From NCBI RefSeq assembly GCF_030296595.1, contig NZ_AP027731.1, positions 806,001 through 870,000 of the forward strand: a stretch of 64,000 nucleotides of DNA, in the 5' to 3' direction. The notes beneath the pieces were generated by a model. The model saw only the letters and a list, made by a program, of their open reading frames with translations. It was not told the DNA's origin and did no database searches. Shown in pieces: positions 8,644 through 42,081 of the stretch. Both the position numbers and the translations under genes were made by a program. The DNA is from Naasia aerilata. GTDB lineage: Bacteria; Actinomycetota; Actinomycetes; Actinomycetales; Microbacteriaceae. Position 1 is the first letter of the stretch; each line of letters begins with the position of its first letter.

Positions 8644-10021
8644 CGCCCTCCGTCGTGTGGTTCCGCGACGACCTCCGCGTCGCCGACAACCCGGCACTCA
8701 CCGCAGCCGCGGAGCGCGGCGGACCCGTCGTCGCCCTCTACGTCCTCGACGAGGACCCGCAGGTCGCACGGCCGCTCGGCGGCGCGAGCCGGTGGTGGCT
8801 GCACGGTGCCCTGGCGGCGCTCGATGCGGAGCTCCGCGCCCTCGGGTCGCGACTCCTCCTGCGCCGCGGGAGCGCTGCGGAGGTCGTGCCCGCGGTCGTC
8901 ACCGAGTCGCAGGCGGCGGCCGTCTTCTGGAACCGGCGCTACGGCCTGGGCGAGCGGGAGCAGGACGCGGCGCTGAAGACGGGGCTGCGGGCCGCCGGTC
9001 TCGAGGTGCGGAGCTTTCCCGGCTCCCTGCTGCACGAGCCGTGGGAGGTCCGCCGCGAGGACGGCGAGCCCTACTCGGTGTACTCCGCGTATGCGCGGGC
9101 GGCGCAGAAGCTGCCCGCTCCGCGCCAGCCGCTCGCCGTGCCCGCCGCACTGCCGGCCCCGCCGCCCCTAGCAGGCGCTGGGCTCGACGACTGGTCCCTG
9201 CTGCCGAGCGCGCCGGACTGGGCCGGGGGCTTCCGCGAGACCTGGACGCCGGGAGAGCGCGGTGCGCACGAGCGGCTCGAGGAGTTCGCCGCCCGGATCG
9301 AGGAGTATCCGACGGGGCGGGATGCGCCGGGCGCCGATGTCACCTCCCGGCTCTCCCCCTCGCTCCGCACGGGCGAGCTGAGCCCGCACCAGGTCTGGCA
9401 TCGGGTGCGGCAGGCGGACCCGTCCGGCCGGGCGGCGGGCAAGTACCTGAGTGAGCTGCTGTGGCGGGAGTTCAACTACAGCCTGCTGTTCGCTCAGCCC
9501 AACCTGGCGGACGAGAACCTCCGGCCGGCGTTCGACCGCTTCCCGTGGAACCGCGCAACCGAGGAGGTCCTGCAGCGCTGGCAGCAGGGCAGGACCGGCT
9601 TCCCCTGGTCGACGCCGGCATGCGCCAGCTGTGGCAGACCGGCTGGATGCACAATCGCGTCCGGATGGTGACGGCTTCGTTCCTCATCAAGAACCTGCTC
9701 CTCGACTGGCGCGAGGGCGAGCGCTGGTTCTGGGACACGCTGGTCGACGCCGATCCGGCGAACAACGCCGCCAACTGGCAGTGGGTCGCCGGCTCAGGAG
9801 TCGACGCCGCCCCGTTCTTCCGCGTGTTCAACCCGGTGCTGCAGAGCCGGAAGTTCGATCCGGACGGCACCTACCTGCGTCGCTGGCTCCCCGAGCTGCG
9901 CGACCTGGATGACAAGGCGATCCACGAGCCGCAGGGCGTGCCCGGGTACCCGGAGCAGATGGTCGACCTCAAGGTCACCCGCGCCGAGGCGCTGCGCGCC
10001 TTCGAGTCGATCTCGGGCTAG
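8640..10021 (+). CDS. phrB: Deoxyribodipyrimidine photolyase, class I, frameshifted
   Basis: This light-driven enzyme splits cyclobutane pyrimidine dimers. The N-terminal antenna-binding Rossmann domain begins SVVWFRDDLRVADNPAL. The FAD domain includes LLWREFNYSLLF, MHNRVRMVTASFLIKNLL, WQWVAGSGVDAAPFFRVFNP and a C-terminal YPEQMVDLKVTRAEAL. The frame breaks near 9602-9606 in TTCCCCTGG; one more C gives GFPLVDAGMRQLWQTGWMHN. Corrected length is about 460 residues, normal for the family. The start overlaps the preceding stop (ATGA), and the stop overlaps that of the convergent polymerase gene by 3 bases. Confidence 0.93.
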
Positions 10022-14262: not shown

Positions 14263-14321
14263 TGTTCTTTTCCTTCGCTGGCGTCGTGCCCGGCATGCGG
14301 GCCGTTCCTTTCCAGCAGGCT

Positions 14322-14543
14322 CTACTTGTAGCGGTAGACGATCCGGCCGCGGGTCAGGTCGTAGGGGCTCAACTCGACGATCACCCGGTCCTCGGGGAGG
14401 ATTCGGATGTAGTGCTGTCGCATCTTGCCGGAGATGTGAGCGAGTACCTTGTGTCCGTTGCTGAGCTCAACGCGGAACATCGCGTTGGGCAGAGCTTCGA
14501 GCACCGATCCCTCGATCTCGATTACGCCGTCCTTCTTGGCCAT
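14322..14543 (-). CDS. infA: Translation initiation factor IF-1
   Basis: IF-1 blocks the 30S A site during initiation. The start is the ATG at 14543 ([12 protein letters not shown]), giving the standard 73 residues of an OB-fold ending [11 protein letters not shown]. An upstream in-frame ATG would add 29 non-homologous residues and was rejected. The 205 bases between mtlD and infA (14544-14748) hold no gene and probably the promoter of the infA-to-rplQ unit. Normally adk and map precede infA; here a mannitol operon does. Confidence 0.97.
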
Positions 14544-14748
14544 ACACTCACTTCGCTGCACGCAGATATCTGCTGGTCTTGCGGGATGATTGCGATGCGA
14601 CCCCACGCAGGACGAGACGGACTCGTTCACGAAGAGGGGAATGGACCGACCGGCCCGGGCACCAACGAGCTATCGTATGCGAAATCCGGCAGGTACGCCA
14701 GCCGACTCGCGCGACTCGTCCTCTACGACAACCTGCGGCGGCGCGGGC

Positions 14749-15903
14749 CTATTCCCGGCCGCTCCCGCGTGCGGCGTCGATCTCCTGGGCGATGCGCGGA
14801 AGCAGGGGCGACGCGCTGTCGATGCCCGTGATCTCCTCCGCCAGGTCGGCCGAACTCCGATCGCTGCGCAGCAGCTCCTGCAGCCGCACGCTCTCCGGGT
14901 CCTCGGGAACGTCGAAGCGGAGGGCCGCGCCGATCGCGCGCACGAGGGCGTCGGGGCTGCGCCCGAGCTCGACGAGGGCGGCCGCCGGCCCGACGAAGCG
15001 CTCGTTGCGGCTCAGCTTGCGCAGCGGCGCGCGGCCCACCCGGTCGACGGTGTCGGAGAGGGCCGGGTTCGCGAACCGCAGGAGGTTCTTCTGCAGGTAC
15101 TTCTCCTGCTCCTCCGGGTCGAAGTCGTGCTTGGTGACGAGCAGGTCCTTCGTCTCCCCCAGCACTGCACGCACCTCGGCTGCGACCTCCGGGAGGTCGA
15201 GCGCCTCGACAAGCGTCGAGGCGCCGCGCGCGAACCCGTGGTAGGCGATCGTCGCGTGGCCGGTGTTGACGGTGAAGAGCTTGCGCTCGATGTAGGGCGC
15301 GAGATCGTCGACGAAGGTCGCCTCGGCGATGTCCGGCACGGCGTTGCCGAATGGGCCTCGCTCGACGACCCATTCGAAGAAGTCCTCGACGGTCACGTCG
15401 AGCCCCGCCGCGGGATCCTGGCCGGGCACGATGCGGTCCACCGCGGTGTTGGCGAAGATCGCCCGGCGCAGCACGGCTTCGTCGTCCGCGAGGAGCATCT
15501 CGATCTCGGCCCGGAGCAGGTCGGTCGCACCGATCGCGTTCTCGCACGCCATGACGCTGACCGGCGCACCGTTCGACGGCCGCGCCCGCAGGCCCTCGGC
15601 GATCACCGGCGCGATGAACTTGAGGATGCTGGGTCCGACGGCGGTCGTGACGATGTCGGCGGTCGCGATCTCCCGCGCGACCTCGACCTCCGCGGTCCGC
15701 GAATTGAGCGCGCGGTAGTTGTCGACCGTCCAGTCGCGGGCGTCCGGGCCCACTTCGTGAACGGTGTAGCTGGGGGTCGTGGCGAGCGCGTCGATCAGGT
15801 CGGCGTTGACGTCGGCGAAGACGACCTCGTAGCCGGCGTTGTGCAGGATCAGGCCGACGAAGCCGCGGCCGATGTTGCCTGCGCCGAAGTGGACGGCCTT
15901 CAT
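14749..15903 (-). CDS. mtlD: Mannitol-1-phosphate 5-dehydrogenase
   Basis: MtlD oxidizes mannitol-1-phosphate to fructose-6-phosphate with NAD+. The start [20 protein letters not shown] is the Rossmann motif; [10 protein letters not shown] and the catalytic region [16 protein letters not shown] are typical of polyol long-chain dehydrogenases. It has 384 residues, as in the family. The ATG at 15903 overlaps the IIA stop by 4 bases (ATGA), so it is translationally coupled to the transporter. An overlapping longer frame lacks homology. Confidence 0.96.
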
Positions 15904-16340
15904 TCGTCGTCCGAGTTGACGTCGCCGAGGAGCGCGAACAGCTCCTCGGGGGTGCGCGCGGCGAGGAGCTTCTCGACCTCGTCCTCGTCGCTGAAGACGA
16001 TCGCGATCTTGGACAGGATGCCGAGGTGCTCGTTGTTCTGTCCGGCGATGCCGATCGCGAACCGGACCTCGTTGCCGTCCCAGTCGATCGGGGCGTCGTA
16101 GCGCACGATGGCGAGCGCCGAGCGCAGGATCGTGTCCTTCGCGTCGTTGGTGCCGTGCGGGATCGCGAGGTAGTTGCCCATGTAGGTGGAGACGGTGTTC
16201 TCGCGATCGAACATCGCGTCGACGTACGCGGGCTCGACGGCACCGGCCGCGACGAGCATGGCGCCGACCTCGCGGATGGCGTCGTCCCGGGTGGTGGCCG
16301 TGCCGTGCAGCGTGATGCGGTCGAGCTCGAGGACGTTCAT
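15900..16340 (-). CDS. mtlF: Mannitol PTS EIIA component
   Basis: EIIA accepts phosphate from HPr and passes it to EIIB. The phosphorylated histidine is in NYLAIPHGT (about residue 62), preceded by the typical [15 protein letters not shown]. It has 146 residues from the ATG at 16340. IIA is a separate protein here, unlike the fused E. coli MtlA. It follows mtlA after a strong hairpin. Confidence 0.95.
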
Positions 16341-16363
16341 GGTTTCCTTCCACCGAGAAGAGC

Positions 16364-16392
16364 GGGTGCGGGGGATCTGCTCCCCCGCACCC
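16364..16392 (-). terminator. 12-bp GC-rich hairpin between mtlA and mtlF
   Basis: GGGTGCGGGGGA (16364-16375) pairs perfectly with TCCCCCGCACCC (16381-16392) around a 5-base loop. Lying 29 bases after the mtlA stop and 24 bases before mtlF, it is probably a partial terminator or mRNA stabilizer setting unequal IIBC and IIA levels. No strong U-tract follows. Confidence 0.6.
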
Positions 16393-16420
16393 ACCCTGTC
16401 ACTTGTTTCCTGTTCCGGGC

Positions 16421-17971
16421 CTACTTGTTCTGCGCCGCCACCCGCTGCACGACCTCGTCGTAGCGCGGGCTGTTCATGAAGTTGTCCACCGACACGTGCT
16501 GGGCGTGCGGGGCCTTCTGCTCGGCGCGCTGCGTGAGCTCGCGCTGCGTGATGACCAGGTCGGCGTTGTCGTCGAGGTTCGAGATGGCCTTGTTGACCAC
16601 CGTGACCCCTTCGATGCCCGCCTTCTTGATCTTGTTGCGCAGCACCGAGGCGCCCATCGCACTCGACCCCATGCCCGCGTCGCACGCGAACACGATGTTG
16701 CGGATGATCGCCCCGTCCGTCGCGACGCCCGCGACGGCACCCGACTCGGCGGCCTCAGCAGCGGCCTCGGAGCCGGAGACGACGCCGGCGCCGATGTTCT
16801 GCGCGCTGCCGGTCGCGGTGGAGGTGCCCGTGCCGAGGTTCGACAGGACCGAGCTCTCCTTGCCCTTGTTCGACTGCGTCGCCGCGATCGCGGCCGACAT
16901 GTCACCCGCGCCCTCGCGCTCGAGGTCGCGCTTGCGGCTCGCCCGGAGGATCACGGACGCCACGAGGAACGACACCAGCGCGGAGAAGACCACCGACAGG
17001 ATGACGCCGACGTAGCTGTCGCTCGCGGTCTGCAGGATGATCGCGAAGATGCTGCCCGGTGAGGCGGGTGCCCGCAGTCCGGAGCCGAAGATGACGTTGG
17101 TGAGGACGCCGGTCGCGCCGCCCGCGATGGTAGCGAGGATGAGGATCGGCTTCGACAGCACGTACGGGAAGTAGATCTCGTGGATGCCGCCGAGGAACTG
17201 GATGATGATGGCGCCCGGCGCGCTCGCCTTGAACATGCCGATGCCGAACACGGAGAACGCGAGCAGGAGACCGAGGCCCGGGCCGGGGTTCGCCTCGAGC
17301 AGGAACAGGATGCTCTTGCCGTCGGCGGTCGACTGCTGGACGCCCAGCGGGGTCAGCACGCCCTGGTTGATCGCGTTGTTGAGGAACAGCACCTTGCCGG
17401 GCTCGATGAAGATGCTCACGAGCGGCAGCAGGTTGAGGCTGACCAGCCAGTCGACGGCACCCTCGATGAGCCCGCTCAGCGCGGTGACCAGCGGCGCGAT
17501 CCCGAAGAAGGCGCCGATCGCGAGGATCATGCCCAGGATGCCGGCTGAGAAGTTGTTGACCAGCATCTCGAACCCGGGCCGGATCTTGCCGTCCCAGATC
17601 CGGTCGACCTGCTTCATGATGTAAGCCGCGAGCGGGCCGACGATCATGGCGCCCATGAACTGCGGGATCGTGCTGCCGACGATGACACCCATCGTCGCGA
17701 TCGTCGCCACGACGCCACCGCGGGTGTCGTAGATCATCCGGCCGCCCTGGTTCGCGATGAGCAGGGGCAGCAGGTATGTGATCATCGGGCCGACCAGCCC
17801 GCCGAGGGTCTCGTTGGGCGTCCATCCGGTGGGGATGAAGAACGCGGTGATGAGGCCCCACGCGATGAACGCCGCGATGTTGGGCAGGACCATCCCGGAG
17901 AGGAAGGTGCCGAATCGCTGAACGCCGACGCGGACTCCTCCCCGCTTCCGTTCGACTGACGTCGCTGTCAT
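16421..17971 (-). CDS. mtlA: Mannitol PTS EIIBC component
   Basis: This is the membrane permease that takes up mannitol and phosphorylates it. The IIC domain (about residues 15-345) is highly hydrophobic and contains GGIHEIYFPYVL, a hallmark of mannitol permeases (GGIHE). After a linker of about 90 residues rich in Ala/Ser/Gly, the IIB domain carries the active cysteine in FACDAGMGSSAMGASVLR. It has 516 residues from the ATG at 17971; the IIA domain is encoded separately by mtlF. It follows ptsI by 46 bases. Confidence 0.95.
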   Translation of the reverse strand: MTATSVERKRGGVRVGVQRFGTFLSGMVLPNIAAFIAWGLITAFFIPTGWTPNETLGGLVGPMITYLLPLLIANQGGRMIYDTRGGVVATIATMGVIVGSTIPQFMGAMIVGPLAAYIMKQVDRIWDGKIRPGFEMLVNNFSAGILGMILAIGAFFGIAPLVTALSGLIEGAVDWLVSLNLLPLVSIFIEPGKVLFLNNAINQGVLTPLGVQQSTADGKSILFLLEANPGPGLGLLLAFSVFGIGMFKASAPGAIIIQFLGGIHEIYFPYVLSKPILILATIAGGATGVLTNVIFGSGLRAPASPGSIFAIILQTASDSYVGVILSVVFSALVSFLVASVILRASRKRDLEREGAGDMSAAIAATQSNKGKESSVLSNLGTGTSTATGSAQNIGAGVVSGSEAAAEAAESGAVAGVATDGAIIRNIVFACDAGMGSSAMGASVLRNKIKKAGIEGVTVVNKAISNLDDNADLVITQRELTQRAEQKAPHAQHVSVDNFMNSPRYDEVVQRVAAQNK

Positions 17972-18017
17972 TGATGTTCTCCTGTTTCTGTGTGTGCTGG
18001 TGAGGGTGGTGCTGGGG

Positions 18018-19679
18018 TCAGACGTGCTGGGGAAGGAGGGCGCGGACGGCGGCGCGGGCAGTCGCCCCGTCCTCGGCGGTGAGCGCGGCGTCGGCGAAGG
18101 CCACCGCCTGCTCGCGGGTGTGCTGCAGGAGTTCGGCGCGCACATCCCCGAGCGCCGACGGCGACATCGACAGGGTGGTGGCGCCGAGGCCGACGAGGAC
18201 GACGGCGAGCAGCGGATCGGCGGCCGCCTCGCCGCAGATGCCGACGGGCTTGCCGAGTGCGGCTCCGGCGCGTCCCACCTCGCGGACGAGCCGCAGCACC
18301 GCGGGGTGCCAGGGGTCCTGGAAGGAGGCGACCGAGCCGAGGAGCCGGTCCGCGGCGAGCGTGTACTGGGTGAGGTCGTTCGTCCCGATGCTCGCGAAGT
18401 CGGCCTCGGCGAGCACGCGGTCGGCGAGGAGCGCCGCAGAGGGCACCTCCACCATCACCCCGGCGGTCTTCAGGCCGAGCTCGCGCGCGAGGGCGACGAA
18501 GTAGCGGGTCTCCTCGACCGTCGAGACCATCGGCGCCATGACCCAGAGGTCCGCGTCCGTCTCGCCGGCCGCTCGCGCCAGCGCCGTGAGCTGGTCGCGG
18601 AGGATCTGCTCGGTCGCCCGCAGCGCCCGCAGGCCGCGGAGGCCGAGCGCCGGGTTCTCCTCCGGAGCGTCGTTGAGGAAGCTGAGCGGCTTGTCCGCGC
18701 CGGCGTCGAGGACGCGGACCACGACCTTGCGGCCCGGGAAGCCGCGCAGCAGCTTGGCGTAGTGGCCGTACTGCTGCGCCACCGACGGCGCCGTCTTGGC
18801 GTCGAGGAAGAGGAACTCGGTTCGGAAGAGGCCGACGCCCTCCGCCCCGGCGGCGACCGCGCCCTCGACGCCCTCGGCGGATCCGAGGTTGGCGAGGAGC
18901 GGGATCGGGGTGCCGTCGGCGAGCGCGCCCGGTCCGACCGGCACCGCGGATCGCTGGGCGCGCGCGGCCGTCTCCCCGGCGGCACGGCGCAGCTCCTCCT
19001 CCGAGGGGTCGACGGTGACCGCGCCGGTCGAGGCGTCGGCGATGACCACGGTGCCGTCGGCCATGTCGAGGATGCCGGAAATGCCGACGATCGCCGGGAT
19101 GGACTTCTCGCGGGCGAGGATCGCGGTGTGCGAGGTGGGCCCGCCCTCGCTCGTGAGCACGGCGAGGACCTTCTGCAGGTCCAGCAGCGCCGTGTCCGCC
19201 GGTGCGAGGTCGCGCGCGACGAGCACGAAGGGGGTGTCGCTCTCCGGCACCCCGGGCGCCGCGACGCCGGACAGGCGCGCGACGACGCGCTGCGAGACGT
19301 CGTCGAGGTCGGTGGCGCGCTCGGCCATGTACCCGCCGATGCCGAGCAGCATGTCGCGGAAGCCCGCGAAGGCCTCGAACACGGCACGATCCGCGGTGGC
19401 GCCGTTGTCCACGCGCACGTCGATGTCGCTGCGGAGGGTCGGATCCTCGGCCATCAGCGCCTGCGCCTCGAGGACCTCCTGCGCCTTGCCGCCTGCTTTC
19501 TCTCCGCGGCTGCGGATGTCCTCCGCCGTGGCGGCGAGCGCGGTCGTGACCCGCTCGCGCTCTCCGTCGGGCCCGATGGTGCTGGGCAGGGTCGCCGGCT
19601 CGGGCAGACGATCGGGCATCCGGAGGACCGGTCCGACGACCAGGCTGCGGCCGATGCCGACGCCGGTGAGGCTCGTCAT
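18018..19679 (-). CDS. ptsI: PTS enzyme I (phosphoenolpyruvate-protein phosphotransferase)
   Basis: EI takes phosphate from PEP and passes it to HPr, feeding all PTS transporters. The phosphorylated histidine is H184 in GGPTSHTAILAR. The PEP-binding barrel contains GLFRTEFLFLD and FASIGTNDLTQYTLAADR, and the C-terminus has VGICGEAAADP. It has 553 residues, close to the norm of 570. It overlaps ptsH by 4 bases. Having the general PTS genes inside the mannitol operon suggests mannitol may be a main PTS sugar here. Confidence 0.96.
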   Translation of the reverse strand: MTSLTGVGIGRSLVVGPVLRMPDRLPEPATLPSTIGPDGERERVTTALAATAEDIRSRGEKAGGKAQEVLEAQALMAEDPTLRSDIDVRVDNGATADRAVFEAFAGFRDMLLGIGGYMAERATDLDDVSQRVVARLSGVAAPGVPESDTPFVLVARDLAPADTALLDLQKVLAVLTSEGGPTSHTAILAREKSIPAIVGISGILDMADGTVVIADASTGAVTVDPSEEELRRAAGETAARAQRSAVPVGPGALADGTPIPLLANLGSAEGVEGAVAAGAEGVGLFRTEFLFLDAKTAPSVAQQYGHYAKLLRGFPGRKVVVRVLDAGADKPLSFLNDAPEENPALGLRGLRALRATEQILRDQLTALARAAGETDADLWVMAPMVSTVEETRYFVALARELGLKTAGVMVEVPSAALLADRVLAEADFASIGTNDLTQYTLAADRLLGSVASFQDPWHPAVLRLVREVGRAGAALGKPVGICGEAAADPLLAVVLVGLGATTLSMSPSALGDVRAELLQHTREQAVAFADAALTAEDGATARAAVRALLPQHV

Positions 19680-19939
19680 GCGTCGTGGTCCGTGGTGAGG
19701 AGCCCGGAGAGCTCGTCGAGCACGTCCTCGGCGCCTTCGCCGTCCACCGCGAGCAGGACCTCGTCGCCGTGGTCGATGCCGAGCGAGATGACGCCGAGGA
19801 TGCTCGCCGCGTTGACGGACCGCCCGTTCTTGGTCAGCTGGACGGGCACTCCGGCCTTCGCAGCGGCCTGGGTGAAGAGGGCCGCGGGGCGGGCGTGCAG
19901 GCCATGGGCGGAAGCGACGACGACGGTGCGTTCAGGCAC
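19676..19939 (-). CDS. ptsH: PTS phosphocarrier protein HPr
   Basis: HPr carries phosphate from EI to the EIIA proteins. His15 is in GLHARPA, and a serine at position 46 (VNAASILGV) matches the HPr kinase site of Firmicutes, although no HPr kinase gene is visible here. It has 87 residues. It starts 2 bases after the IIB-like gene and overlaps ptsI. Confidence 0.96.
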   Translation of the reverse strand: MPERTVVVASAHGLHARPAALFTQAAAKAGVPVQLTKNGRSVNAASILGVISLGIDHGDEVLLAVDGEGAEDVLDELSGLLTTDHDA

Positions 19940-19941
19940 AG

Positions 19942-20271
19942 CTACTCCTTGGTTTCGGGGATGGGGGTTCCACGGTAGGACGCCGCGGCCAGCAACTCGC
20001 GGGCTTGCGCGACGGCTGCTGAAGCACCGTCCGCGCCGAAGGCGGTGGGCGGCAGCAGGCCGACCGGCGCCTCCCCGACCAGGATGCGGACCGAGTCGAG
20101 TCGCTCGGCGAGCTGGGGCGCCACGAGCACGGCGTCGCAGTGCGCGGCCTCCTCGGGGACGGAGTCGAGCGGAACGACCACCGGCTGCAGTTCCGCGTCG
20201 AGGGCCCGGATGCGGCGGGCGAGGAAGGTTCCGGAGACGCCGGCGACGCAGACGATCAGCACTCGTGCCAC
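19942..20271 (-). CDS. Stand-alone PTS IIB-like protein
   Basis: This 109-residue protein begins MARVLIVCVAGVSGTFLARR, resembling the phosphocysteine loop of lactose/cellobiose-type IIB domains, with Cys8 as the candidate site. The middle (CDAVLVAPQLAERLDSVR) also fits that fold. No matching IIC or IIA is in the window, since mtlA has its own IIB domain. As first gene of the operon, divergent from mtlR, it may be a phosphorylation sensor or belong to a second transporter elsewhere. Function is inferred from the loop and context. Confidence 0.65.
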   Translation of the reverse strand: MARVLIVCVAGVSGTFLARRIRALDAELQPVVVPLDSVPEEAAHCDAVLVAPQLAERLDSVRILVGEAPVGLLPPTAFGADGASAAVAQARELLAAASYRGTPIPETKE

Positions 20272-20345
20272 GGTCGCCTCCTCGCGTCCGAACGAACTCC
20301 TGTGGTCAGTGTGCCGCGGGGCGGGCGGGGCTCACCAGCGGATCT

Positions 20346-20365
20346 TCTTCCGCACCCCCGGAAGA
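20346..20365. promoter_or_regulatory. Inverted repeat upstream of mtlR, possible operator
   Basis: TCTTCCG (20346-20352) and CGGAAGA (20359-20365) form a 7-bp inverted repeat in the 123-base divergent spacer, 30 bases before the mtlR start. It could be an activator site or a short leader hairpin. Support is positional only. Confidence 0.3.
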
Positions 20366-20394
20366 CGAGCACTGATCCGTGGTTGAGTGAAGGG

Positions 20395-22293
20395 ATGCCG
20401 GACAAGACGCCTCAGCTGCTCGAGCACCTCGCTCGCGCAGAGGGGTGGGTCGCGGCCAGTGAGCTCGCCGAGCGCCTCGGAGTGAGCACGCGCACGGTGC
20501 GCAGCTACGTGACCGCGATCAAGGCGGCGGCCGGTCCGCTCGACGTCATCACCTCGTCGACGAGCGGCTACCGCCTCAACCGCGAGGCGTATGCGAAGTA
20601 TGCGGCCGGGTCCCCGCGGGCGGCCGGCACTCCCGGCACACCCCGGGAGCGCGTGGCCTTCCTCGGCGCGCGCCTGGCGCAGGCGCCGGAGGGGCTCAGC
20701 GCCTCGGAGCTCGCCTCCGCGCTCTTCGTGTCGGAGACGACCCTCGAGTCCGATCTCCGGCGGGTGCGCACGCTCGCGCGGGACAGCGGCGTCGAGCTGG
20801 TCCGCTCCGGTGACACCCTCCGCCTCGAGGGCCGCGACGAGGGCCTGCGCCGGCTCATCAGCCGCATCTTCCGGGAGGAGACGGCCCGCGGGATGTTCGA
20901 CCTCGGCCAGGTGCAGGAGGCGTTCGCGGTCGGCGACCTCAGCGCCTTCAAGACCGACGTGATCGAGCTGCTGAGCGCCGCCGGCTACACCGTCAACGAG
21001 CTCGGGCTCGACGGGGTCCTCGTGCACACGGCCATCGCCGTCGAGCGCTCCCGCCGCCGGATGCCGCCCGCGGGCGAGGGCGTGGTGGACGGCGACCTCG
21101 AGACGGCGCTGGCCACGATCGTGGAGCGGCACTTCGCCACCTCCCTGCCACCCGGCGAGCTCGCTTCCCTCGCCCTCCTGCTGACCACACGGGTCGGCAC
21201 CCGACGGCCGGAGGAGGAGGTGCTGGCCTCCGCGGAGGTCGCCGACGACGTCGCCGTCCTCCGCCGACTGATCGAGGGAGCCGAGCGGGAGTACCTCATC
21301 GACCTCGACGACGAGGACTTCCTGCTGCGGCTCGCCCTGCACGTGCGGAACCTGGTCGCCCGCTCGCGGGCCGGGTCCCTGACCCGCAATCCGCTCGCCC
21401 GCTCCATCAAGACGTCCTACCCCCTCACCTACGAGCTGGCGGTGTATCTCGCGAGCGAGATCCAGCGCGAGTTCCGCATCACCGTCAACGACGACGAGAT
21501 CGCGTTCATCGCTCTGCACGTGGGCTCGCACCTCGAGCGCCATGCGCGTCCGGCTGACGACGTGACGGCGACGCTCGTGCTGCCCGGCTACCACGACATG
21601 GGCGCGGTGCTCCGCGACCGGGTGGAGGCGGCCGCGGGACCGGATCTGCGCGTGGTCGACGTGGTCGGGCGCACCGACGCGCCGCTCGAGGGCCACGGCA
21701 CGGATCTCGTCATCACGACGCTGCCGGTGGTTCCCCGCCCGGAGAACGTGGTCGTCGTGAGCCCGTTCCCCAGCGCCGCGGACGGCGAGGCGATCCGGGC
21801 CGCCGTCTCGCGGGTCCGACGGCACCGCCGTCGCGCGCGCATCCGGAACGAGCTGCGCCTCTATCTCGACGAGCGGCTCTACCTGCGCAATCCGGACGCG
21901 GCCGACGCGGACGCCGTCATCCGCCTGCTGGGCGAGCGGATGATCGGGCTGGGCATCCTCGACGAGCGCTACCTCGAGGGGGTGCTCGAGCGGGAGCGGC
22001 TGTCGTCGACCGCGTTCACCGAGAGCCTCGCCGTGCCGCACTCGATGGCGATGAGCGCCGCGCGCACCGCCATCGGGCTCGCGGTCTTCGACTCCCCTCT
22101 GGAGTGGGGCGACGGCCGGGTCAACGTCGTGGCGCTGGTCGCGTTCAGCGCCGAGGGACGCGCCGCATTCCAGACCGTGTTCGAGCAGTTCGTCGAGGTG
22201 TTCGCGGAGCGCTCGGACGTGCAGCGGCTCCTGCGCGACTCGACCGACTTCCCGTCGTTCCTCGAGCAGCTCGCGCTGCTCATCGACAGTTGA
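20395..22293 (+). CDS. mtlR: BglG/MtlR-family PTS-regulated transcriptional activator
   Basis: This 632-residue regulator begins at the ATG at 20395 after GAAGGG. An N-terminal helix-turn-helix lies at about residues 22-40 (ELAERLGVSTRTVRSYV), with a second near residues 105-125 (SASELASALFVSETTLESD). Two PTS regulation domains follow, with histidines in RLALHVRNLVARS and IAFIALHVGSHLERH, then a IIB-like segment (about 400-480) lacking an obvious cysteine, and a C-terminal IIA-like domain with histidine in SLAVPHSMAM. This fits mannitol-operon activators controlled by HPr and EIIA phosphorylation. It is divergent from the mannitol operon it probably controls. Confidence 0.9.
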   Translation: MPDKTPQLLEHLARAEGWVAASELAERLGVSTRTVRSYVTAIKAAAGPLDVITSSTSGYRLNREAYAKYAAGSPRAAGTPGTPRERVAFLGARLAQAPEGLSASELASALFVSETTLESDLRRVRTLARDSGVELVRSGDTLRLEGRDEGLRRLISRIFREETARGMFDLGQVQEAFAVGDLSAFKTDVIELLSAAGYTVNELGLDGVLVHTAIAVERSRRRMPPAGEGVVDGDLETALATIVERHFATSLPPGELASLALLLTTRVGTRRPEEEVLASAEVADDVAVLRRLIEGAEREYLIDLDDEDFLLRLALHVRNLVARSRAGSLTRNPLARSIKTSYPLTYELAVYLASEIQREFRITVNDDEIAFIALHVGSHLERHARPADDVTATLVLPGYHDMGAVLRDRVEAAAGPDLRVVDVVGRTDAPLEGHGTDLVITTLPVVPRPENVVVVSPFPSAADGEAIRAAVSRVRRHRRRARIRNELRLYLDERLYLRNPDAADADAVIRLLGERMIGLGILDERYLEGVLERERLSSTAFTESLAVPHSMAMSAARTAIGLAVFDSPLEWGDGRVNVVALVAFSAEGRAAFQTVFEQFVEVFAERSDVQRLLRDSTDFPSFLEQLALLIDS

Positions 22294-22299
22294 ATCTCA

Positions 22300-22342
22300 C
22301 TGATTGAGGAGCGACCGAAGGGAGCGTCTCGAAATCCGGTGA
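22300..22342 (-). repeat. Dispersed palindromic repeat, copy 2
   Basis: This is an inverted copy of the 12986 element, reading CTGATTGAGGAGC at one end and TCTCGAAATCCGGTGA at the other. It lies 7 bases after the mtlR stop. With copy 3 it forms a large inverted repeat between convergent mtlR and adk and so may end transcription from both sides. Confidence 0.75.
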
Positions 22343-22390
22343 CCATGTCTCAGGACTCAGCCACGCCCGGCCGGGCTCTGGGGGTTCGTC

Positions 22391-22434
22391 GCCGGATTTC
22401 GAGACGCCCGCTTCGCAGGCTCCTCAATCAGCGG
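22391..22434 (+). repeat. Dispersed palindromic repeat, copy 3
   Basis: This has the same orientation as copy 1: GCCGGATTTCGAGACGC at the left, CTCCTCAATCAGCGG at the right, and a weaker internal stem. It lies 9 bases past the adk stop. The sequence between copies 2 and 3 (22343-22390) shows nothing else. Confidence 0.75.
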
Positions 22435-22443
22435 AGGATCGGC

Positions 22444-23034
22444 TCAGAGGGCGGCGGCGCCGATGCCGCGACGCTCGAGGGCGTCGACGATGCGGTCGGT
22501 GACCTCGTCCATCGAGCCGAGACCGTCGACGCGGATCACGAGGCCGCGGTCCGCGTAGACGTCGATGAGCGGCGCAGTCTGGGCGGCGTACACGTCGAGC
22601 CGGTGACGGATGACCTCTTCGGTGTCGTCGCTGCGCCCCTGGTCCTTCGCCCTGCGGAGGAGACGGGACACCGTCTCGTCCGTGTCGGCGGTGAGCTGGA
22701 CCACGGCGTCGAGGCTCTCGCCGCGCTGGGCGAGGAACTCGTCGAGCTCCCGGACCTGGTCGGTCGTGCGCGGGTAGCCGTCGAGGAGGAATCCGGAGTC
22801 CGCGTCGGCAGCCTCCAGGCGGTCCATCACCAGGTCGTTGGTGACCGAGTCGGGCACGTACTCGCCGCGGTCCATGAAGGACTTGGCGAGGACGCCGAGC
22901 TCGGTGCCGCCGCGGACGTTGTCGCGGAAGATGTCCCCCGTCGAGACGGCCGGGATCGCCAGCCGCTCGGACAGCCGTGCCGCCTGGGTCCCCTTGCCTG
23001 CGCCCGGCGGACCGATGAGCAGCAGACGCGTCAC
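22444..23034 (-). CDS. adk: Adenylate kinase
   Basis: Adk catalyses 2 ADP = ATP + AMP. The GTG at 23034 gives VTRLLLIGPPGAGKGTQAARL with the P-loop; STGDIFRDN and FLLDGYPRTTDQ are typical. It has 196 residues and a short LID without zinc cysteines, as in other actinobacteria. The start overlaps the secY stop by 4 bases (GTGA). map, which often follows adk, is absent. Confidence 0.97.
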   Translation of the reverse strand: MTRLLLIGPPGAGKGTQAARLSERLAIPAVSTGDIFRDNVRGGTELGVLAKSFMDRGEYVPDSVTNDLVMDRLEAADADSGFLLDGYPRTTDQVRELDEFLAQRGESLDAVVQLTADTDETVSRLLRRAKDQGRSDDTEEVIRHRLDVYAAQTAPLIDVYADRGLVIRVDGLGSMDEVTDRIVDALERRGIGAAAL

Positions 23035-24352
23035 CGAAGCAGTCCTTCGTAGTGCCGCTGCTGGAGCTGCGAGTCGATCTGCTTCACCGTCTCGAGCCCC
23101 ACGCCGACGATGATGAGGATCGAGGCGCCACCGAACGGGAAGTTCGTGTTCGCTCCGACCAGCACGAACGCGATCAGCGGCACGAGCGCGATCAGACCGA
23201 GGTAGATCGAGCCCGGCAGCGTCACCCGGGTGAGGACGTAGTCGAGGTACTCGGCCGTCGGGCGGCCCGCGCGGATGCCCGGGATGAAGCCGCCGTACTT
23301 CTTCATGTTGTCCGCGACCTCCTCCGGGTTGAAGGTGATCGCCACGTAGAAGTAGGTGAACCCGACGATGAGCAGGAAGTACAGGAGCATGTAGAGCGGG
23401 TGGTCGCCCTTGGTCAGGTAGTTCTGGATCCAGACGACCCACGGCTGCGGCGTCTGGCCCGCGGCCGGCTGGTTGAACTGGGCGACGAGGGCGGGCAGGT
23501 ACAGCAGCGACGACGCGAAGATGACCGGCACGACGCCCGCCATGTTCACCTTGATCGGGATGTACGTGTTGTTGCCGCCGTAGGTGCGCCGGCCGACCAT
23601 GCGCTTCGCGTACTGGACCGGGATCCGACGCTGGCTCTGCTCGACGAAGACGACGAGGCCCACGATGACGAGGCCGATCGCGATGACGAGCAGCAGCACC
23701 TCGATGCCCTGCGACTGCGCGATCGCGCCGAGGAGTCGGGGAAGCGCGCCGCGATGGACGTGAAGATCAGCAGGGACATGCCGTTGCCGATGCCGCGCTC
23801 GGTGATGAGCTCACCGAGCCACATGATGAGGCCCGTGCCTGCGGTCATGGTGATGACCATGAGCAGGATCGCGTACCAGGCGTCGTTCGTGATCAGCTGC
23901 GTGCAGGCGGGGTCGCTGTTCTGCGGGAACAGCGCGCCGCTCCGGGCGACGGTGATCAGCGTCGTGGACTGCAGGACGCCGAGCGCGATGGTGAGGTAGC
24001 GCGTGTACTGCGTCAGCTTGGCCTGGCCGGCCTGGCCCTCCTTGTAGAGGGCTTCGAAGTGCGGGATGACCACGCGCAGCAGCTGCGTGATGATCGACGC
24101 CGTGATGTACGGCATGATCCCGAGCGCGAAGATCGACAGCTGCAGCAGCGCGCCGCCGCTGAACAGGTTGACGAGCTCGTAGAGGCCCGAGGTGTTCTGG
24201 TTCTGCGCGAGACACTGCTGCACGTTCGCGAAGTCCACGAACGGCGCGGGGATGAACGACCCCAGCCGGAAGAGGGCCACGATGCCGAGCGTGAAGAGAA
24301 GCTTTCGGCGCAGGTCGGGCGTGCGGAAGATCCGCCCTATTGCTCGGAACAC
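23031..24352 (-). CDS. secY: Preprotein translocase subunit SecY, frameshifted
   Basis: SecY is the channel of the Sec translocon, with ten membrane helices. The start is the GTG at 24352 (VFRAIGRIFRTPDLRRKLLF). YKEGQAGQAKLTQYTRYLT and GIGNGMSLLIFTSIAARFP are intact up to the break. A missing C in the run at about 23737-23741 breaks the frame; restored, it continues RLLGAIAQ and VLLLVIAIGLVIVGLVVFVE through QRRIPVQYAKR to the C-terminal YEGLLR. Corrected length is about 441 residues. Because the gene is essential, the break must be an error. Confidence 0.96.
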
Positions 24353-26345: not shown

Positions 26346-26881
26346 TTACCTACCTGACTTTCCGGTCTTGCGGCGAACGGCCTCGCCCGCGTAGCGGACA
26401 CCCTTGCCCTTGTAGGGCTCCGGCTTGCGGATCTTGCGGATGTTCGCGGCGACCTCACCGACGGCCTGCTTGTCGATGCCGGACACCGTGAGGCGGTTGT
26501 TGCCCTCGACCTGGAAGCTGATGCCGGCGGGGGCGACACGAGGACGGGGTGGCTGAAGCCGAGCGCGAACTCGATGTCGCTGCCCCGAGCGGTCACTCGG
26601 TAGCCGGTGCCGACGACCTCGAGGCTCTTGGTGTAGCCCTGGGTGACGCCCTGGATGTTGTTGGCGAGGAGGGTGCGCGTGAGTCCGTGCAGCGAGCGCG
26701 ACTCGCGCTCGTCGTCGGGCCGGGTGACGAGCACCTGGCCGTCCTGGACGGCAACCTCGATCGGGCGGGCGACGGTGAGGTTCAGCTCACCCTTCGGCCC
26801 CTTGACGGTGACGGCGCTGCCGTCGACCGTGACGTCGACCCCCGAAGGGATCTCGATGGGAAGTCTTCCGATTCGCGACAT
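26346..26881 (-). CDS. rplF: 50S ribosomal protein L6, frameshifted
   Basis: L6 lies near the factor-binding site. It begins [20 protein letters not shown], with [20 protein letters not shown] and [11 protein letters not shown]. The frame breaks in the G/C run at 26529-26533; one added base restores [20 protein letters not shown] through [13 protein letters not shown] to the end. Corrected length is about 178 residues, as usual. Confidence 0.96.
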
Positions 26882-40907: not shown

Positions 40908-42081
40908 GAGCGGCTCCCTTCGTCGGAGGAGAACAGCCGGCGCTCGGTGGAGACGAGCCGCTCGCTCCCCGTCGCGGTGACCACGACCTGGTCGCCGAAC
41001 ACGTGGTAGCCCGCGATCGGCGTGTAGGTGTTGGGGTGGATGATGAAGGTCGCGCCCTCGGGGAAGACCGTGTGGTTCCCCTCGATGATGGGGACCTCGT
41101 CGAGGTGCAGCCCGACGCCGTGGCCGCGCACGCGCGTCCACTGATCCGAGCAGTACTCCCCCAGCCCGTACTTGCGGAACACGTCGTTCTCGGCGACCGC
41201 GATCTCGTGGGCGGTGACTCCGGGCTTCACGACGGCCACTCCCGCCTCGGCCGCCTCGAGGAAGAGCTCGGCCGATCGACGCTGCTCCGGGGAAGGCTCG
41301 CCCACAACGGCGGAGCGACAGATCTGCAGCCAGTACCCCCGGTCTGCGGAGTGAGCTCGGTGCGGACGAGGTCGCCCTCCTGGAGGAGCCGGCGGCTGGG
41401 CGGCGTCATGCCGAGCACCTCGTCCCTGCCGGAGGCGATGAGCATGAAGTTGTCCTCGGCCCCGAGCCGCTTGATCTCGCTCTCGACCTCCGCGACGATG
41501 TCGTACTCGGTGATGCCGGGCTCGAGGACCTCCACGAAGGTGCGCCACGCGGCGTCCGAGACCTTCGCGGCCTGGCGCATCCGGTTCAGCTCCCACTCGC
41601 TCTTGACCATCCGAGCCGCATCGAAGAGCTTGCTCGCCGACACGAGCTCGACTCCGGGGAGCCCCTCTCGCAGGGCGCCGTCGAATACGGTGGGGAGCAG
41701 CTCGAGGTGACCGACCCCGATCCGCTGGGCGCCCAGCGCGCGGACCTCGTCGACCAGGGGGCGGAGGTCCGCCACCGAGACGAGCTCGGCTCCGCGGACC
41801 CACCCCCGGCGCCGCAGGGGCACGAGGTCGGCGAGACGCGTGGTGAACGCGACCGCCTCGCCGTCGAGCGGCAGGAGCACGAACGCGCCGGCGCCGCCCA
41901 CCGAGGTGTCGGTGAGGTAGCGGACGTTCTCCCGGCGCCAGGCCGGGGCGTAGGCGATCAGGGCGTCCAGCCCGCTCTCCGCCATGGCGGCGCGCAGCTT
42001 CGTGTGCCGGAGTCCGAGCTCCTCCGCGTCGTCGGCGGCCGTGGGGCCCGCCGCCGCACGGACGATGTCGATGAGGGTCAC
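40904..42081 (-). CDS. M24-family hydrolase with altered metal site, frameshifted
   Basis: This creatinase/prolidase-fold protein has the N-domain (LDALIAYAPAWRRENVRYLT) and the pita-bread domain. Usual ligands Asp, Asp, His, Glu, Glu appear changed: GDLVRTELTPQ has Glu and YWLQICRSAVVG has Gln at the Asp positions, His is kept in RGHGVGLHLDEVP, and FIIHPNTYTP and FGDQVVVT replace the two Glu. That resembles metal-free members such as creatinase, which cleave C-N bonds. One base is missing near 41336-41342 (G run). Corrected length is about 393 residues. It overlaps both neighbours by 4 bases. Confidence 0.82.

Follow-up and report, generated by a model that had tools for sequence, protein, structure and literature searches.

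The window analysed here is a stretch of 64,000 nucleotides from Naasia aerilata (Microbacteriaceae; contig NZ_AP027731.1, positions 806,001 to 870,000). Between infA and adk it carries genes of the mannitol phosphotransferase system (PTS), a gene for the regulator MtlR and a gene for a small IIB-like protein. We read this locus, with a probability of about 0.6, as an ordinary mannitol PTS operon that has its own general PTS genes and is run by the PRD-type regulator MtlR together with a dedicated stand-alone IIB protein. The evidence comes from the linkage of the IIB gene to mtlR, from conserved residues and from an inverted repeat between the two genes. The three elements concerned are as follows.

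19942..20271, minus strand: stand-alone IIB-like protein with the cellobiose/chitobiose IIB fold (AlphaFold; Foldseek), transcribed first in the operon, loop CVAGVSGTF with Cys8; PF02302, E-value 0.00026, below the gathering score
20348..20363, no strand: inverted repeat TTCCGCACCCCCGGAA, putative MtlR operator, single exact copy in the window, at a conserved position in mtlR/IIB intergenic regions
20395..22293, plus strand: mtlR, PRD-type regulator with HTH_11, a Mga-like helix-turn-helix (HTH), PRD1, PRD2, a degenerate EIIB-like domain and an EIIA-like domain (PF08279, PF00874, PF00359; AlphaFold)

Linkage of the IIB gene to mtlR

The IIB gene is clearly linked to mtlR. In profile searches of 150 genomes of the family, a strong IIB match was found in 65 genomes and mtlR in 66, the 65 all lying within the 66, while ptsI was present in 137 of the same genomes. 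In the 66th genome (G141), mtlR is a remnant interrupted by a stop, and no other operon genes are left at that place. Across the class, the same 17 of 393 genomes carry both genes; the two samples share genomes. The IIB profile matched 75 family genomes in total, but ten matches (G006, G013, G017, G023, G061, G094, G099, G108, G139 and G148) were partial, at no more than about 24 bits, and were set aside. Seven weak matches among 24 were dropped class-wide (G139, G333, G359, G173, G248, G361 and G487), leaving the 17. A single-sequence IIB search found 52 of the 150 family genomes, compared with 65 by profile.

At the level of loci, 133 of 135 have the two genes side by side in divergent orientation, their starts a median of 155 bp apart. 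These loci come from two overlapping sets, one from the family genomes and one selected by a Cys pattern, so that 133/135 is no count of independent genomes. Mannitol transport genes without mtlR were seen in 10 of the 60 loci read, and the IIB gene is absent in all ten. One of the ten (G067), from the genus of the window, has mtlD-IIA-IICB-ptsI-ptsH between infA and adk without mtlR, the IIB gene or the repeat. In the remaining nine, ptsI adjoins a DeoR-family gene, assigned by Pfam in six cases and, by eye, from near-identical sequence in three. For 55 of the 71 family genomes with ptsI and without mtlR, one ptsI region each was read. The IIB gene remains beside mtlR in loci that are missing ptsI, alone or together with ptsH (L072, L091, L096, L174, L196, L199 and L226).

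Adjacency could by itself produce such a pattern, if a shared regulatory region keeps the IIB gene with mtlR and their joint losses are single deletions. The divergent arrangement at short distance fits this explanation, as does G067, which is without both genes and the DNA between them. We nevertheless consider it unlikely. None of the 65 IIB-bearing family genomes is without mtlR, and only a remnant mtlR is entirely without IIB; moreover, the neighbouring ptsH or ptsI do leave the locus, and the Cys loop of the IIB protein is invariant though the protein varies.

In 18 of the 80 Cys-pattern loci (L134, L146, L155 and other Microbacterium), a further HPr-like gene lies beyond mtlR.

The stand-alone IIB protein

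The single-sequence Pfam score of the 109-residue IIB-like protein is 22, compared with a gathering cut-off of 23.6 (PF02302). Its AlphaFold model has a predicted local distance difference test (pLDDT) value of 94.2, and Foldseek aligns the model to 2wy2/1iib with template modelling (TM) scores of 0.82-0.87, which identifies the IIB fold. Here and below, residue, tree and repeat counts use distinct sequences, and MtlR reads shorter than 500 amino acids (L160, L180, L182, L203 and L222) were dropped. The active cysteine is kept in 56/56 sequences from loci not chosen by the Cys pattern; when the Cys-pattern loci are added the count becomes 121/121, partly by construction, as the pattern demands the Cys loop. 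Otherwise the copies vary, with 25-45% identity to the copy in the window. In Cryobacterium (L174, L196 and L199) the 3' end of mtlR is accompanied by a second IIB copy, and the locus contains no ptsH/ptsI.

The protein could be a transport subunit, a IIB left over from, or shared with, a cellobiose/chitobiose-type permease whose IIC is encoded elsewhere. Its sequence and fold are nearest to the cellobiose/chitobiose IIB proteins and its phosphorylatable Cys loop is intact. This role seems improbable all the same, as the gene tracks mtlR and not ptsI, and no partner IIC of a Lac/Chb-type permease was found: the genome has one EIIC of family PF02378, which is the mannitol permease, and no EIIC-GAT (PF03611), these being the two EIIC types searched.

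The IIB cysteine of the permease itself is kept in 112 of 112 proteins in which the motif was read, four truncated or split reads being set aside, so transport has its own IIB. An accessory IIB that raises the phosphate flow to IICB would share the operon with IICB and IIA, as the small IIB does here and in most loci read, but this role is hardly probable given that cysteine and the ten mtlR-less operons, all of which manage a related permease without a stand-alone IIB.

The inverted repeat

The repeat TTCCG-N6-CGGAA was first noticed in an alignment of seven loci. Its core, TTCC-N8-GGAA, is present in 113 of 118 mtlR/IIB intergenic regions (20.3 kb), and in 107 of 111 once the seven discovery loci are removed. 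Flanking DNA, which is partly repeated, has 4 copies in 2,062,180 bp, a density that predicts 0.04 copies in the intergenic set. This count replaced an earlier random-segment control that was not fully free of the intergenic region.

Two loci have TTCCT...AGGAA, with both arms altered together. The repeat is also found in the Nesterenkonia locus outside the family described below, and directly upstream of a distant mtlR (L092) whose neighbour is ptsH. With one mismatch allowed, the window has 3 matches, no more than its shuffles (mean 2.65); the claim is therefore carried by the conserved position and not by the pattern alone. The repeat at 20348-20363 is a putative MtlR operator, and such an operator would let the mannitol regulon be mapped in many soil and plant-associated actinobacteria.

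Domains and residues of MtlR

The N-terminus of MtlR matches PF08279 (HTH_11; E-value 6.4e-13) and, over the same stretch, HTH_Mga (PF08280; 2.6e-5, just above the cut-off). A match to Mga (PF05043; 0.00084) is weak and below the cut-off. PRD2 was found by Pfam, and both of its histidines are kept in 116/116 relatives, as is the histidine of the EIIA-like end (PF00359; 1.5e-16). The first histidine of PRD1 is kept in 113/116, and the expected second site is Leu in 114 and Gln in 2.

The cysteine site of the EIIB-like domain is not conserved as cysteine. It is Leu in the window, Cys in 87 of 116 proteins and Ser, Phe, Leu, Ala, Thr or Val in the other 29; among proteins from loci not chosen by the Cys pattern, 37 of 56 have Cys. 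The site was assigned by the family alignment and the strand order of the AlphaFold model, and not by aligning the B. subtilis protein. On a FastTree tree of MtlR it needs 14 changes, of which at least 9 are forced by starred branches, while long branches leave some placements unsure. The AlphaFold model of MtlR (pLDDT 83.6; predicted TM score (pTM) 0.48) matches the Mga/AtxA folds and, at its end, IIA-Mtl.

Proposed control of the operon

Under the preferred reading, in which a PRD-type MtlR works with a dedicated IIB, phosphate from enzyme I (EI) and HPr would be placed on the PRDs of MtlR and would also pass, by way of IIA-Mtl, to the small IIB as well as to the permease IICB. Mannitol uptake would drain phosphate to the sugar and leave the small IIB dephosphorylated, in which form it would act on the EIIB-like/EIIA-like end of MtlR. 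MtlR would thereby be able to activate both divergent promoters by way of the repeat. The signal given in B. subtilis by the IIB domain of the permease would come here from a separate, soluble IIB. The binding of MtlR to the repeat, the binding or phosphate transfer between IIB and MtlR, and the direction of the effect are steps that we infer. The model can be tested directly, since natural operons that have the mtlR/IIB pair and others that lack it are found within a single genus.

Rather more tentatively, at somewhat less than even odds, we propose that a diffusible stand-alone IIB serves as the dedicated phospho-sensor of a PRD activator, in the role that the permease IIB and the EIIB cysteine of the regulator have in Bacillus. 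Sensor and activator would, with the divergent operator, form a control module of two proteins that has been retained across Microbacteriaceae and that one Nesterenkonia carries along with the entire operon.

Several observations weigh against the preferred reading. A gene may have been missed, because the searches score a limited number of first-look candidates. Because mtlR lies next to the IIB gene, the two could be lost in a single deletion, for example in G067, without any functional tie, and the nine operons with a DeoR-family gene may be a separate operon lineage and not losses. In one genome (G084), contig C8 encodes a further MtlR-like protein that is more distant (427 bits) and has no IIB match in its vicinity; at L092 the distant mtlR has its IIB 3.5 kb away, and at L201 the pair is 1.9 kb apart. 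Since 87 of 116 MtlR proteins have Cys at the EIIB site, the stand-alone IIB may add to that site and not replace it. Finally, the second IIB copy in Cryobacterium is unexplained by the model.

Gene content and organisation of the locus

The other features of the locus are listed below.

14322..14543, minus strand: infA (flank), open reading frame; tblastn matches in relatives at 86-100% identity
14749..15903, minus strand: mtlD, mannitol-1-phosphate 5-dehydrogenase; NF002652, E-value 3.9e-133; PF01232, PF08125
15900..16340, minus strand: mtlF, mannitol IIA, active-site motif AIPHG present; PF00359, E-value 3.4e-34
16421..17971, minus strand: mtlA, mannitol permease of the IICB type that includes a IIB domain (FACDAGMGSS, with the Cys); NF011663, E-value 5.4e-185 (above cut-off); PF02378, PF02302
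18018..19679, minus strand: ptsI, enzyme I, sole copy found in the genome; TIGR01417, E-value 1.7e-114
19676..19939, minus strand: ptsH, HPr, motif HGLHARP, 4-bp overlap with ptsI; PF00381, E-value 7.2e-25
22444..23034, minus strand: adk (flank), with no map separating it from mtlR; PF00406, E-value 9e-49

By Pfam and NCBIfam, the interval between infA and adk holds mtlD, IIA, IICB, ptsI, ptsH, a gene with a weak PTS_IIB match and a regulator with PRD and EIIA domains. As mtlA, mtlF and mtlD are all present together, it is a mannitol PTS operon. On the minus strand the order of transcription is the 109-residue IIB-like gene, ptsH, ptsI, IICB, IIA and mtlD. These six genes look like one operon because mtlD and IIA overlap by 4 bp, as do ptsI and ptsH, and only 2 bp separate ptsH from the IIB gene. 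The mtlR gene is on the plus strand, divergent from the other six, and therefore stands outside the operon. The original prediction had named the same genes and its identities hold, except that it placed mtlR in the operon and gave the permease as IIBC, here corrected to an IICB fusion with its own IIB. A sigma-70-like promoter was sought across positions 14300-22500 of the window and none was found.

The active-site motifs of IIA, HPr and EI are all present in the window. In relatives, the strict motifs were matched by 132/133 IIA, 99/127 HPr and 118/125 EI sequences.

PTS complement of the genome

Mannitol as the dominant PTS substrate, proposed in the original prediction, is consistent with this genome. 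It has a single ptsI match and a single PF02378 EIIC, the mannitol permease, and a search for EIIC-GAT (PF03611) found none, other EIIC types, including the mannose and glucitol types, not being searched. Mannitol is on these grounds probably the main PTS sugar. A second ptsHI locus was considered and rejected, as there is one ptsI and the second HPr match is the HPr domain inside DhaM of a dhaKLM cluster. This HPr domain makes it probable that the only ptsI, that of the mannitol operon, supplies dihydroxyacetone kinase as well.

The genes like dhaK, dhaL and dhaM (L012:9389-12744) stand beside a glpF-like gene. A second orphan IIB, of the ascorbate type (UlaB-like), directly follows an adenosine deaminase-like gene (L013:9580-9855; G000:C1:1579585), and no EIIC-GAT was found in the genome.

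Position between infA and adk

The original prediction had also set the locus, with its missing map, against the usual order secY-adk-map-infA, which implied that the position of the operon is unusual. At the site itself map is indeed missing: there is none between mtlR (end 22293) and adk and no room for one. It is not lost from the genome, as a type I methionyl aminopeptidase of 256 amino acids (TIGR00500, E-value 1.3e-72) is encoded at G000:C1:2087281. A possible map copy at window positions 40973-41583 was rejected, as it is by sight a frameshifted peptidase of the Xaa-Pro/creatinase type.

The idea of a peculiar location fails on synteny comparison, as the layout is frequent in Microbacteriaceae. 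Either adk, map or infA adjoins the mannitol block in 36 of 51 loci from the family genomes, and adk is next to mtlR, with or without map, in 44 of the 80 Microbacteriaceae-type loci of the Cys-pattern set. Among these 44, map is present in 39 and absent in five, four from Naasia and one from Amnibacterium. The family-genome loci with adk are without map in 3 of 35 cases (L049, from the genus of the window; L054; L087), and map is likewise absent at the site in L207, of the same genus. In these counts map was sought with the other map of the genome as query (34-40% matches), and a strongly diverged copy could escape. The location of the operon is common in the family and by itself ordinary. 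Within the Cys-pattern set the closest match to the locus is that of Naasia sp. SYSU D00057, with 67% in the IIB gene.

Some relatives (L211, L228, L230, L232, L262 and L265) have ptsI between adk/map and infA without mtl genes, so ptsI may have been at this site independently of the mannitol genes. Outside the family, Nesterenkonia pannonica (L184) has the complete cluster, including mtlR, IIB and the repeat, near infA-rpsM and not between adk and infA; a transfer is possible. A contig titled Acidobacteria bacterium G2_35 (L153) holds a typical Microbacteriaceae mtl locus and is probably wrongly labelled or from a mixed bin.

Indel errors in the assembly are suggested by several genes of the window that should be intact but run over more than one frame: secY near 23740 and rplF near 26530, both by comparison with L126, and a peptidase near 41330 and a photolyase-like gene near 9460, both by eye. 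Assembly completeness is 90.6%, compared with 98-100% in most relatives listed.

Comparison with known systems

The solved folds nearest to the MtlR model are those of the AtxA/Mga PRD regulators (3sqn, 4r6i and 5way). Unlike MtlR, these regulators have no EIIA-like end according to the available part of PMC8560693, and no link of them to a mannitol operon was seen here. The small IIB resembles CelA and ChbB (1IIB, 4MGE and 2WY2) in size, fold and phosphorylatable Cys loop, but differs from them in its linkage to mtlR, in a Pfam score below the cut-off and in that no partner EIIC of that type was found.

Within the family, a mannitol operon is reported as the sole PTS of Pontimonas salivibrio (PMC6106888, available in part), which resembles the situation here; the available part of that account mentions no regulator-linked IIB or operator. 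Among the matches listed in the open-licence literature there was no paper on an MtlR/stand-alone IIB pair.

The closest known counterpart is MtlR of B. subtilis, described in papers available to us in part (PMC8560693, PMC3217849, PMC6148471 and PMC10992428, which cite Bouraoui 2013 and Joyet 2010). The two regulators share the order HTH, PRD1, PRD2, EIIB-like and EIIA-like, the conserved PRD2 and EIIA histidines and a mannitol operon as target. They differ in that PRD1 here has no histidine at its second site, and in that the EIIB cysteine site, Cys419 in the EIIB-Gat-like domain of the B. subtilis protein, is variable here. Furthermore, mtlR is here divergent from the operon, with TTCC-N8-GGAA as the proposed operator, and a separate small IIB gene is tied to it. 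In B. subtilis the EIIB domain of MtlA activates MtlR and draws it to the membrane (cited in the available parts of PMC8560693 and PMC6148471). In Bacillus, then, the permease itself reports sugar flux to the PRD regulator, whereas a IIB paralogue reserved for this task, if our reading is true, would be a transport domain split off for signalling.

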